42,067 nt of DNA from Nitrospinota bacterium (GTDB lineage: Bacteria > Nitrospinota > Nitrospinia > JACRGO01): contig JACRGO010000186.1 of assembly GCA_016212295.1 (NCBI GenBank), positions 1 through 42,067 on the forward strand. The letters are read 5' to 3'. How positions within the stretch are numbered: the stretch's first letter is position 1; each line of letters opens with the position of its first letter. The position numbers were made by a program, and so were the translations under genes. The notes below the pieces were generated by a model that was given only the letters and a program-made list of their open reading frames with translations, searched no databases and was not told where the DNA came from. Of the stretch, positions 1,793 through 5,094 are shown in pieces.

Positions 1793-1969
1793 CTACGCGG
1801 CTTTATAATGCTTTTTGGGGTGTGACATGGTCTTTTCCCCGAAAAGGCATTTATCACAGATATGGGCCTCGCTCCTTGAACACATTAAGCAGCTCACGTC
1901 CCCGATATCATGCCTGAGCGGCCCGCCGCAATGCTTGCAGATTTTGTTTTTTTCCTTGTCCTTTTTCAT
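1793..1969 (-). CDS. Small zinc-ribbon protein, last gene of the sigma-E operon
   Basis: This is a 58-residue protein with three CxxC pairs: CKHC (11-14), CLMC (27-30) and CDKC (38-41). It also has several histidines, so one or two zinc sites are likely. There is no signal peptide, so it should be cytoplasmic. The start ATG overlaps the stop of the RseB-like gene (ATGA), and GGAGG lies 9 bases upstream. This makes it the fourth gene of the sigma/anti-sigma/RseB operon. It sits where rseC lies in E. coli but is unrelated to it. The ribbon resembles generic RNA- or protein-binding zinc ribbons; its role is unknown. The reading frame, RBS and coupling strongly support a real gene. Confidence 0.75.
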   Translation of the reverse strand: MKKDKEKNKICKHCGGPLRHDIGDVSCLMCSRSEAHICDKCLFGEKTMSHPKKHYKAA

Positions 1970-3060
1970 TTTTTCACGCCTCCTTTGATTGTTTGGAAAG
2001 ATTCCGCTATTTTCAGTATTTCGTTTTTATCTATCTCGCCGATAATTGTTTGCTTGGTATTTCCCGCCGCGAAACGCAGTATTTTCATCAGCCCCTGCTG
2101 CTTGAAATAACCTTGCCCTTCCTTGCCAATGGTGACTGCCTCAAGGTCCTGGATATCTTCCGGCCTGGCCGCGCCTTCCATTGCTTCCTGGAAGATGGAA
2201 AGAGGGGCTATGCCGTCCGAATATATAATCTGATATCGCTCGCCATTCTTCATTTTTTGGGCAAAAACGTTTTTCAAATCGTATCCCTTGGGCACGTAAC
2301 CGGGAAACATGACCTTATCCTTCAAGGTTTCCTGGAGCTTTTTTAAAGGCACCAGTATAACGTCCAATACATCGTGCGGACTTTTCTGCGCCGCCTGGTC
2401 CATTAAATTCAATTGGGAAATATCCTGCGGAAATTCCGGATTGAAATCAATGGCCTCGAAGGAGGCGATATTAAGCAGCCTTCCGTCGGAATTATAAGTG
2501 TCTATCCTCAAAGGGAGTCCGCTTTGAGTGTCAACCCAGAATTCCCGGACCAATCTTCCCTTTTCCTTGGGGCGGAAGGAGTAAACGGAGCAAGTCCGCC
2601 CCGCTATATTGGCGTCCTTTAAAAATTTTATTTCATAGTTGTCCTGGATCTTCTTCAGTTTTTCATCATCCCAGACCGGCAGGCCAGCGTCCGCTTCATC
2701 GGCCGCTTCCTTCTTGATCAGTTTTTCCTGCTTGGGATAATACACCCAAGTGCCATGCTGGTTCTTGATGTATATTTCATCGGGTTGCGGACTTCCCTCC
2801 ACCTGGGTCCTGGCGAATTCCCTGCCTTTCTGCTCCACGGAAAATTTCTTTACCACTGGAACGCCGTCTTTCCCGATAAGGATTTGAATCTCCGTGCCTT
2901 TAAAATTCAGGTTTCCCGGAGGACTCATTATCCTTTTCAGCGTTTCCATTTCAATTTGGCCGCCGGTATCCCCGGCCATGGCCGGGAAAGAACTGAAAAG
3001 GACCAATGAAACAGCCCAAAATATTAATTTCAAATTCCTGTAAACCTCAATAACTGGCAT
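1966..3060 (-). CDS. RseB/MucB-like periplasmic sigma-E regulator
   Basis: This is a 364-residue protein with an N-terminal signal peptide (hydrophobic about residues 9-25, then AMA/GD). It is followed by a LolA/RseB-type half-barrel with the pattern GTWVYYP, GRTCSVYSFRP and EFWVDTQSGLPLRIDTY. The C-terminal part (MFPGYVPKGYDL onward) resembles the second RseB domain. RseB proteins bind the periplasmic part of the anti-sigma factor and sense mislocalised lipoprotein or LPS; that role is inferred here from family and operon position. Its start overlaps the end of the anti-sigma gene by 14 bases. A generic outer-membrane lipoprotein-sorting-like protein is the main alternative. Confidence 0.75.
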   Translation of the reverse strand: MPVIEVYRNLKLIFWAVSLVLFSSFPAMAGDTGGQIEMETLKRIMSPPGNLNFKGTEIQILIGKDGVPVVKKFSVEQKGREFARTQVEGSPQPDEIYIKNQHGTWVYYPKQEKLIKKEAADEADAGLPVWDDEKLKKIQDNYEIKFLKDANIAGRTCSVYSFRPKEKGRLVREFWVDTQSGLPLRIDTYNSDGRLLNIASFEAIDFNPEFPQDISQLNLMDQAAQKSPHDVLDVILVPLKKLQETLKDKVMFPGYVPKGYDLKNVFAQKMKNGERYQIIYSDGIAPLSIFQEAMEGAARPEDIQDLEAVTIGKEGQGYFKQQGLMKILRFAAGNTKQTIIGEIDKNEILKIAESFQTIKGGVKK

Positions 3061-3619
3061 AAATCACCGGATAGCCAATATGCGATTGCGAGGCGTTTTG
3101 CGCGTGAAACATAAGGTATTCATCCAATTCTGATTGCTTCTTCAACTTCTGCTGGACAGCGACTGGCTGTACAGGTATGGGGTTTGTTTGTTTTGCGATA
3201 TTCACCACCGAAGGGACCCTGACCTCTCCCTGGTTGGAACCATTTTTTTCGAACAGAGAAAGCGGGAGAAGTAGGAAAATCATAATGGCGAAGGCAGGGG
3301 CCAGCCACCGGACCCGATAGGGGGTAAAGGCGGAATGGATTTTTTCGATCCATCCGGCCACTGCGGGTTGCGGCGCGAAAGCCCCTTGCTTGGACAAACG
3401 ATCCAAAACGGAGAACGTGAAACTTTCATCGGCAACGGGCGATGGCTCCATCGCCTTATGAAACTTTATGGACGCGCGAAACCTTAAAAGGTCCTCCATT
3501 TTCATTTGGCAATCGCGGCACTGTCTGAGATGAACGGAAAGCATCTCGCCGTCTCTCCTTCCCAAGCTTTGGTCTATAAATTCAAATATGAAATTTTCCA
3601 TTTTCCCGCAATCCATCAT
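3047..3619 (-). CDS. Anti-sigma factor (zf-HC2/RseA-like, membrane-bound)
   Basis: This 190-residue protein has a zinc-binding anti-sigma domain with H30-x3-C34-x2-C37, and one membrane segment at about 105-122 (WLAPAFAIMIFLLLPLSLF). The periplasmic tail ends in LDEYLMFHAQNASQ, which recalls the YLxxHxxxA motif near the RseA C-terminus. It should hold the sigma factor encoded just upstream at the inner membrane and release it after regulated proteolysis. The gap to the sigma gene is 24 bases with the RBS AGAGGA. Two adjacent ATGs (3619 and 3616) are possible starts. Confidence 0.85.
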   Translation of the reverse strand: MMDCGKMENFIFEFIDQSLGRRDGEMLSVHLRQCRDCQMKMEDLLRFRASIKFHKAMEPSPVADESFTFSVLDRLSKQGAFAPQPAVAGWIEKIHSAFTPYRVRWLAPAFAIMIFLLLPLSLFEKNGSNQGEVRVPSVVNIAKQTNPIPVQPVAVQQKLKKQSELDEYLMFHAQNASQSHIGYPVIYASY

Positions 3620-3643
3620 TTTGTCCTCTTTTATATTATGTGT

Positions 3644-4240
3644 TTAAACCAAGGGCTTTAAATTCCTTCGCAATTCCTTCCGCGCCCTGTTAAGCCTGGA
3701 ACGGACCGTTCCAATGGGAATATTCAATACCTCCGCTATCTCCTCATAACTCATGTCCTCGTATTCCTTCAAGATAACAACCTTTTTATATTCATCCGGC
3801 AACTCCTCAATTGCCGCGACAGCGGCCTGGGCGGTTTCGTGCAGCATATATCCTTCCTCAAGCCAATTGCCGCTGCCCCCAGGGGTGTCCATCAATTTCT
3901 TTTCAAGGTCCCCGTTTTCATATACCGTGGTGGTTCGTACCCTGGCCAAGCTCAGGTAATTAAAGCCCGTATGCATGGCGATTTGATACAACCAGGTATA
4001 GAAAGACGATTTTCCCTGAAAGCCTTGTATGGATTTAAATGCATTGATAAAAACATCCTGGGCCAGGTCCCTGACCACGTCACGGTCCTTGACCACGCGA
4101 TAAAGGACGCTGAAAATTTTGTCCTGGTAGCGCATAACCAGATGTTCAAAGGCATTTTTATCTCCTTTCTGGCATAACCGGACAAGAACATCATCCGCTA
4201 CATTCTCTCCTCCACCCTCATCCATTTTAAACATTCGCAT
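3644..4240 (-). CDS. rpoE: ECF sigma factor, RpoE-like
   Basis: This is a 198-residue group 4 sigma factor. Region 2 contains DLAQDVFINAFKSIQGF and the -10 recognition segment FYTWLYQIA. Region 4 contains the helix-turn-helix YEEIAEVLNIPIGTVRSRL followed by NRARKELR. With the anti-sigma and RseB-like genes downstream it forms a classical envelope-stress operon. A near-consensus sigma-E promoter upstream indicates autoregulation. The start could be ATG 4240, 4234 or 4225. None has a strong RBS, and 4225 (MDEGGGENVADD) would give a more usual length. Confidence 0.92.
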   Translation of the reverse strand: MRMFKMDEGGGENVADDVLVRLCQKGDKNAFEHLVMRYQDKIFSVLYRVVKDRDVVRDLAQDVFINAFKSIQGFQGKSSFYTWLYQIAMHTGFNYLSLARVRTTTVYENGDLEKKLMDTPGGSGNWLEEGYMLHETAQAAVAAIEELPDEYKKVVILKEYEDMSYEEIAEVLNIPIGTVRSRLNRARKELRRNLKPLV

Positions 4241-4260
4241 ATATTATATAGCTTGCCTTC

Positions 4261-4288
4261 TTTGACAAAGCCTGATTAAAAAAGTTCC
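4261..4288 (-). promoter_or_regulatory. Sigma-E type promoter of the rpoE operon
   Basis: On the minus strand GGAACTT (4288-4282) is followed by exactly 16 bases and then TCAAA (4265-4261). This matches the established sigma-E consensus (GGAACTT, 15-16 bases, TCAAA/TCTRA). It points at the sigma gene and lies 20 bases upstream of the first possible start codon, giving a short leader. Confidence 0.8.
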
Positions 4289-4317: not shown

Positions 4318-5094
4318 CTACTTCCATTTATATTCCATAAAGCTGATTTTTATTTTTTTGCCGGATTCGCGGGCTTTCCTGTAAGCTTTGTTGTCGTAAA
4401 AACGGTCAAACCATTCCAAAAGAGAAGGACTCTTAAAATCCTCGTTGTACCATTCAAATATCCTGGAAACATTCAGTTCGTTTGTTTCAGGATGGAATTC
4501 ACTTTGTAAAATAATATTGGATATCGCCGTATCCAGTTGTTTTTCAAGGCCCTTAGGGTCGTAATAGCTAATCGGCGGACATGAAACAGCCCCACAATTC
4601 AAGGCGCCGTGAATTCTTGGATCGGCCTTTTTAAATACAAAACCGAGCTTGGGACTGTCTGCTAGTATTTGAGACATATTTAAGCCCCCTCGATTCGCAT
4701 TGCCCCTTAAAACCCCATGTTCTATATCATCCAGGGACCATTCTCCAACAGCAAGCTTCACCACAGGTTGCGTGAAAAAATACTTTCTGCTTGACTCCGT
4801 TTGGAGGCCGTTCGGGTCCAGTAATTTCCGCCAAGTGACTATTCCATTATATAGATTCACCCAGAACGCAGTGGCCTCCTGGGTATTGCCGGGCAATGGA
4901 GGTGTCACTTTTTCAAGTCGGCCAAGCGCCTCTTTAATCTCTTCCTGGTTTTCTCCACGCGCGGCGTTCAGCAGGTCCACCGCGTATTCAAAATGTTCTT
5001 TTTTCTTCAGCGGGACTTCCTCGCCCATCGCCGGTTCATAGGGTGAAATGAGCAAAATGGATGCCAAAACAAAAAATCTTCCCCAAAAAAACAC
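4318..5094 (-). CDS. DUF547 domain protein, exported
   Basis: This 258-residue protein has a signal peptide (residues 1-24) and a DUF547 domain. Family motifs are visible: FWVNLYNGIVTW, WSLDDIEHGVLR, DPRIHGALNCGAVSCPPI (with conserved H, C and C), and the terminal ISFMEYKWK. DUF547 proteins are widespread periplasmic or extracytoplasmic proteins of unknown activity; a cysteine-based enzyme has been suggested from the conserved residues. It lies directly upstream of the sigma-E operon in the same direction, so it may be part of the envelope-stress region, but it has its own upstream space. Confidence 0.85.
   Translation of the reverse strand: MFFWGRFFVLASILLISPYEPAMGEEVPLKKKEHFEYAVDLLNAARGENQEEIKEALGRLEKVTPPLPGNTQEATAFWVNLYNGIVTWRKLLDPNGLQTESSRKYFFTQPVVKLAVGEWSLDDIEHGVLRGNANRGGLNMSQILADSPKLGFVFKKADPRIHGALNCGAVSCPPISYYDPKGLEKQLDTAISNIILQSEFHPETNELNVSRIFEWYNEDFKSPSLLEWFDRFYDNKAYRKARESGKKIKISFMEYKWK

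Follow-up and report, generated by a model that had tools for sequence, protein, structure and literature searches.

The closest described counterparts of the locus analysed here are the rpoE-rseA-rseB-rseC operon of Escherichia coli and the comparable algU-mucABCD operon of Pseudomonas. The E. coli operon encodes a sigma factor, a membrane anti-sigma factor and RseB in that order, and the RpoE promoter elements are given as GGAACTT and TCAAA in one report (PMC12153292). Recognition of GGAACTT by RpoE and positive autoregulation of most ECF sigma operons are likewise stated in another (PMC8103513). The cysteine-bearing gene after rseB in E. coli encodes RseC, which is described as having a cytoplasmic cysteine motif and acting in the SoxR reducing system (PMC11729352). 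A second relevant group consists of ECF sigma factors paired with class I anti-sigma factors (ASDIs), among which roughly 48% of the membrane-bound proteins carry the zinc motif Hx3Cx2C (PMC7406223).

The window, by which we mean the whole analysed stretch of 42,067 nucleotides from a bacterium of the class Nitrospinia, is one contig (C137) of a 3.74-Mb genome in 237 contigs that is 90.5% complete (G000). The sequence and domain searches place five features one after another on its minus strand: a sigma-E-like promoter, the genes for an ECF sigma factor, an anti-sigma factor and an RseB-like protein, and a 58-codon gene containing three CxxC motifs (Table 1). The sole genome of the same genus in our searches (G001, the sister genome) has the matching order of NTP-transferase, DUF547, sigma, anti-sigma, rseB and small gene, with identities to the window of 62% for sigma, 46% for anti-sigma, 47% for rseB, 59% for the small gene and 57% for DUF547. 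The DUF547 gene occupies the same position in both genomes; synteny and strand are what connect it with the operon, and we do not claim it as a member. A search of the literature on Nitrospina sigma factors in combination with zinc ribbons, and on Nitrospinota sigma factors, returned nothing on such an operon among the papers listed, the Nitrospinota ones being judged by title, and an Rfam scan of the window gave no match.

Table 1. Features of the sigma operon and its surroundings, in window coordinates
Feature	Positions	Strand	Evidence and remarks
DUF547 gene	4318..5094	-	DUF547 E 1.1e-25; upstream of sigma gene, same strand; synteny
Sigma-E-like promoter GGAACTT-N16-TCAAA	4261..4288	-	Ahead of sigma gene; kept in sister genome
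ECF sigma factor, 198 codons as listed	3644..4240	-	Sigma70_r2 E 2.1e-13; Sigma70_r4_2 E 5.6e-20
Predicted single-pass membrane anti-sigma factor, HxxxCxxC zinc motif	3047..3619	-	Sequence; zf-HC2; one hydrophobic stretch
RseB-like periplasmic protein	1966..3060	-	MucB_RseB N domain E 4.4e-17; listed frame overlaps anti-sigma; exact start uncertain
Shine-Dalgarno-like AAAGGAGG of small gene	1979..1986	-	Inside rseB end; kept in sister genome
58-residue three-CxxC zinc-ribbon gene	1793..1969	-	Family motif C-x-H-C-x-G ... C-x-M-C-x-R-x3-H-x-C-x2-C

Sigma factor, anti-sigma factor and RseB-like protein

The sigma factor has sigma2 and sigma4 domains that both exceed their Pfam cut-offs, and it also passes the cut-off of the NCBIfam sigma70-ECF model (TIGR02937). 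Its best NCBIfam model is RpoE (TIGR02939), matched with 161.9 bits and thus below the cut-off of 236.15. Alignment with the sister genome makes a start at 4225 (193 codons) more plausible than the listed start at 4240, and the promoter-to-start distance would then be 35 bases in the window and 33 in the sister genome. Pfam confirms the sigma and RseB domains in the sister counterparts.

The anti-sigma protein carries a single hydrophobic stretch, at residues 105–123, and an N-terminal HxxxCxxC motif (HLRQCRDC in the window, HISGCQDC in the sister genome), and its gene adjoins that of the ECF sigma factor, which are the attributes of a zinc-motif ASDI. Given the share of membrane-bound ASDIs reported to carry this motif (PMC7406223), its occurrence here is ordinary. 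The zf-HC2 model matches the window protein with an E-value of 0.025, under the cut-off, and its sister counterpart with 2.8e-6, above the cut-off. Models of the RseA family do not match the window protein at E ≤1 in Pfam or NCBIfam, and the sister protein has no RseA match in Pfam at E ≤0.01. The tail, predicted to be periplasmic, ends in a block conserved between the two genomes (LDEYLMxHxQNAS...YP...SY), which is consistent with a putative site for RseB or a protease. The sequence-only reading had called the arrangement of sigma, anti-sigma and RseB classical; this holds for the gene order, whereas the anti-sigma factor differs from that of E. coli in being of the HxxxCxxC type and in lacking a match to an RseA model.

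The third protein is identified by its MucB_RseB N-terminal domain, which scores 62.7 bits against a cut-off of 22.3 (60.5 bits in the sister genome). The MucB_RseB_C domain reaches 24.2 bits against a cut-off of 30.1 (20.6 in the sister genome), DUF4367 scores above its cut-off across the same C-terminal part, and the NCBIfam RseB equivalog gives 36.5 against a cut-off of 368.

RseB-type genes were sought in 387 genomes, comprising 76 of the class and 311 others. At E 1e-8, MucB_RseB is found in 27 of the 387; the window genome and the sister genome are the only two of these that belong to the class. Relaxing the threshold to 0.001 raises the class count to 20 of 76, where the other 18 matches are short or weak and none reaches 1e-8. 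We therefore rejected the idea that the operon occurs throughout the class: outside the genus, sigma matches (E 1e-20) are at most 39% identical, and the MucB_RseB matches are short or weak. A scan of named genomes with the window RseB protein detected no relative. Beyond the class there are 26 RseB-like loci in 25 genomes, and 12 of the 26 have an HxxxCxxC protein encoded upstream of the RseB-like gene, as counted by eye from these two genes. Thus, the combination of a zinc-motif anti-sigma factor with RseB appears to be common, and it is the small gene that makes the window operon a variant. The window anti-sigma factor resembles those of other ECF–ASDI pairs in its motif and membrane helix, whereas the additional small gene behind rseB sets the window apart from them.

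The predicted promoter of the sigma operon

The pattern GGAACTT-N16-TCAAA has its sole perfect match in the window at 4288-4261, which confirms the earlier identification of a sigma-E-like promoter pointing at the sigma gene. The sigma gene of the sister genome is preceded by GGAACTTTTTTA...GTCCAA, with the same −35 element and equal spacing. When up to two mismatches are allowed, the window contains 3 matches compared with 6.1 in shuffled sequences, and a search of the 3.74-Mb genome with spacers of 15–17 yields 2 matches compared with 3 for a reversed control, the second match falling inside a 681-codon frame. Because the pattern occurs at background frequency genome-wide, the case for this promoter lies in its position before the sigma gene and its conservation in the sister genome. 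A weak sigma-70-like match (9 of 12) overlaps the promoter at 4268-4241; the scan that found it gave 6 matches in total compared with 5.6 by chance.

Sequence match and conservation together argue for autoregulation of the operon, and conservation of the promoter in the sister genome lends support to the self-activating loop that had been proposed. As judged from the promoter, transcription would start near 4254, and the four genes are presumably co-transcribed.

Searches for a wider regulon gave counts for the pattern against the reversed control of 2 versus 3 and 4 versus 8 in the window genome, and of 7 versus 4 and 5 versus 9 in the sister genome. Besides the two sigma promoters, 13 sites (3 in the window genome and 10 in the sister genome) were checked for frames. 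In the window genome, two of the three fall within frames of 681 codons and 668 codons, and the third, on contig C144, within a doubtful 113-codon frame; the search of this genome revealed no convincing further target.

The small gene and its family

Within the window, the rseB stop and the small-gene start share the sequence ATGA, whereas in the sister genome they are one base apart and AAAAGGAGG is kept. Coupling by ATGA, as described in the sequence-only reading, is accordingly a feature of the window; what is conserved between the two genomes is the tight coupling. Comparison of the two small genes reveals 14, 15 and 35 differences at first, second and third codon positions, so that 35 of the 64 base differences fall at third positions, with a dN of 0.32 and a dS that is not computable and that we read as saturated.

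An 18-row alignment of the small protein had no stretch conserved enough for scanning; a 7-row alignment did. A profile search finds the family in 46 of the 76 class genomes, the window genome included, with one match per class genome and E-values down to 2.5e-31. Forty-four of the 76 are class genomes outside the window genus, and among the 31 class genomes with at least 90% completeness and at most 5% contamination, 28 have the gene. It was not found in the single genome of family f3, the three genomes of family f4 or the six of family f6. A search with a single sequence gave 46 of 100 genomes, and another profile count gave 47 of 76, one of them (G055) by a 22-residue fragment at a contig end that is left out of the 46 and of the loci described below. 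Also not counted are a 24-bit partial match in G268 and two matches that lie inside longer frames, one of 17 residues (L076) and one of 11 (L077). The small frame is therefore conserved in relatives, with 59% identity to its sister counterpart, so that the absence from relatives that had been named as evidence against it did not come true, and its linkage to the sigma operon is narrow.

The frame is short and matches no family model above cut-off, as a spurious frame might, yet its presence in 46 class genomes, its profile E-values, its codon-position bias and its retained Shine-Dalgarno sequence make it almost certainly wrong to regard it as anything other than a gene. From these comparisons, we conclude that the small gene is real and under purifying selection.

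Outside the class, the family occurs in 2 of the 311 genomes, G138 and G279, with three copies each (L209, L210, L211, L212, L213 and L214), and as single copies in two records with the labels Nitrospirae HyVt-426 and Proteobacteria C1.bin.17. These labels may be mistaken, since one genome of the class also bears a Nitrospirae label. All eight copies share C-x-H-C-G-G ... C-x-[MN]-C-x-R-x3-H-x-C-x2-C, and the C1.bin.17 copy and the window protein share 55% identity across 42 residues.

Eleven residues are invariant in 27 family sequences (C11, H13, C14, G16, C27, M29, C30, R32, H36, C38 and C41). They include six cysteines and two histidines, which we guess from their invariant positions could hold two metals; the predicted metal is zinc. 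The window protein matches nothing above cut-off in Pfam and NCBIfam, and none of the 27 aligned members does so in Pfam (best E 9e-4). With respect to these model collections the gene is novel, as the sequence-only reading had it, and it is conserved. The AlphaFold model, made with 27 sequences, is of moderate confidence (mean pLDDT 71.1, pTM 0.48); it reaches pLDDT 83–86 at residues 11–40 and has strands at 17–21 and 24–27, between the knuckle cysteines. The CxxC knuckles around this predicted hairpin resemble those of DZR (PF12773) and of TFIIB/TFS-type zinc ribbons. Unlike DZR proteins, however, the small protein scores only 16.7 bits with that model (E 0.0083) against a cut-off of 27.3, and Foldseek against the PDB gave 84 matches at E ≤10 with none at 0.001, the top two, which are not significant, being TFS4 (E 0.84) and the TFIIB zinc ribbon (E 1.3).

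Genomic context and role of the small gene

We read 46 loci, comprising those of the sister genome and of G002, the G055 fragment (whose stretch is without a small-gene match and does contain DJ-1 and UbiE), and 43 others of the class. At 39 of the 43, a DJ-1/PfpI gene lies upstream of the small gene on the same strand, with divergent UbiE at 34 and convergent PhzF at 27, where the three families were confirmed on one example each. DJ-1 is absent from the stretches of G025, G036, G058 and G063, and the G002 small gene has other neighbours. Searched by tblastn at E 1e-4, a threshold that very diverged anti-sigma or rseB genes could escape, and in stretches of mostly about 1.5 kb on each side (less at contig ends), none of 44 loci (the 43 and G002) has sigma, anti-sigma or rseB beside the small gene. 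The survey of relatives thus bore out the linkage in the sister genome and not at these 44 loci, and only two genomes, both of one genus, show the small gene linked to the sigma operon. A DJ-1 gene is also present in the window genome, on contig C153, and the 5.5 kb around it contain no such small zinc-ribbon gene. Outside the class, the neighbours are peptide deformylase (G138 and G279), glutaredoxin (G279 and HyVt-426), and ribosomal L28 and a class II tRNA synthetase (C1.bin.17). The glutaredoxin gene directly adjoins the small gene in two records that lie outside the class by label or kinship (L074 3965-4222 and L213 2472-2723).

This labile context, in which DJ-1 predominates within the class and different genes flank the small gene in G002 and beyond the class, together with the single match per class genome, would suit a housekeeping zinc-ribbon gene that came to lie behind rseB by chance and is functionally unconnected with the sigma response. 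We consider this unlikely, given the strong Shine-Dalgarno sequence, the close spacing to rseB (an overlap in the window, a gap of one base in the sister genome), and a scan that detected no sigma-70-like site immediately upstream of the small gene.

The sequence-only reading had proposed a modulator or redox sensor of the pathway. In its fullest form, the proposal would have the small protein modulate the sigma response of this genus from the cytoplasm, sensing zinc or thiol oxidation in the place of RseC. Its gene is the last of the operon and tightly coupled in both genomes, its invariant cysteines and histidines would suit such a sensor, RseC offers a precedent for a cytoplasmic cysteine motif (PMC11729352), and the DJ-1 neighbours in the class and glutaredoxin in the two outside records fit thiol or carbonyl stress loosely. 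However, the family is present in 46 class genomes whereas MucB_RseB at E 1e-8 is present in two, so that 44 class genomes outside the genus carry the protein without it; the usual neighbour is DJ-1; and none of the 44 loci has the operon genes nearby. RseC is a two-helix membrane protein with another cysteine motif, whereas the small protein has no membrane segment (highest 19-residue hydropathy 0.62) and no match to the RseC_MucC model, which does match a gene at one RseB-like locus outside the class (G358, E 9.7e-29). Furthermore, none of the 26 outside-class RseB-like loci has a small three-CxxC gene within 250 bases downstream on the same strand, among frames of at least 30 codons. The modulator claim was not upheld, and we regard it as rather improbable.

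The explanation we favour, and hold to be reasonably probable, is that this is an autoregulated sigma, zinc-motif anti-sigma and RseB operon of a known kind, to which the genus attached a pre-existing small gene as an output rather than a modulator. Because in most related bacteria the gene lies elsewhere, we take it to be a probable later addition, as an output or passenger, and not a new core part of the pathway. By analogy with E. coli, the anti-sigma factor would hold the sigma factor at the membrane until periplasmic stress, gated by RseB, led to its cleavage by an HtrA-type protease and then by RseP, and the freed sigma factor would activate transcription from its own promoter and so of all four genes. 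The window genome encodes an RseP-type protease (frame score 307 bits) and HtrA-type proteases (DegP/HtrA match above cut-off), so this known proteolytic route is possible. The small cytoplasmic zinc-ribbon protein, from a family that existed before, should then rise with the sigma response, since its gene lies behind rseB in this genus. The stress signal, the protease steps, zinc binding and the role of the small protein are inferred.

What counts against this favoured explanation is that the small gene is tightly coupled to rseB in both genomes though rseB itself is only 47% identical, which could mean a functional tie. Further points against it are the background frequency of the promoter pattern across the genome, the lack of a convincing second target in the window genome, and the chance that very diverged anti-sigma or rseB genes escaped the locus survey at its threshold and stretch length. 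A bolder version, which we think quite doubtful, is that the genus recruited a soluble zinc or thiol protein as a true fourth component that couples the cytoplasmic redox or zinc state to the RseB-gated sigma factor, as an independent counterpart of RseC, with the wider family being a general stress-linked zinc protein. If the sigma link is functional, two unrelated cysteine proteins, RseC and the small protein, would be known from the same operon position. Under the favoured explanation, the operon is a familiar envelope-stress circuit, and the useful yield of the analysis is a small zinc-ribbon family, as yet uncharacterised, in which eight possible metal ligands are invariant and which exceeds the cut-off of none of the Pfam and NCBIfam models scanned (Pfam only for the 27 members).

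Several minor observations concern the region behind the small gene. A pattern search found no terminator 3′ of the gene, and the minus strand at 1655-1830 folds better than shuffled sequences (z −2.33, with 2 of 200 as good). The sister genome has a PAPS-reductase-domain gene between the small gene and DUF507 (L108 7695-8396), which is absent at that place in the window. The DUF507 region at 1091-1650 consists of two tandem 93-codon genes with a 4-base overlap, which match the first and second half of the Pfam model, respectively, and two DUF507 genes are also present in the same place in the sister genome.
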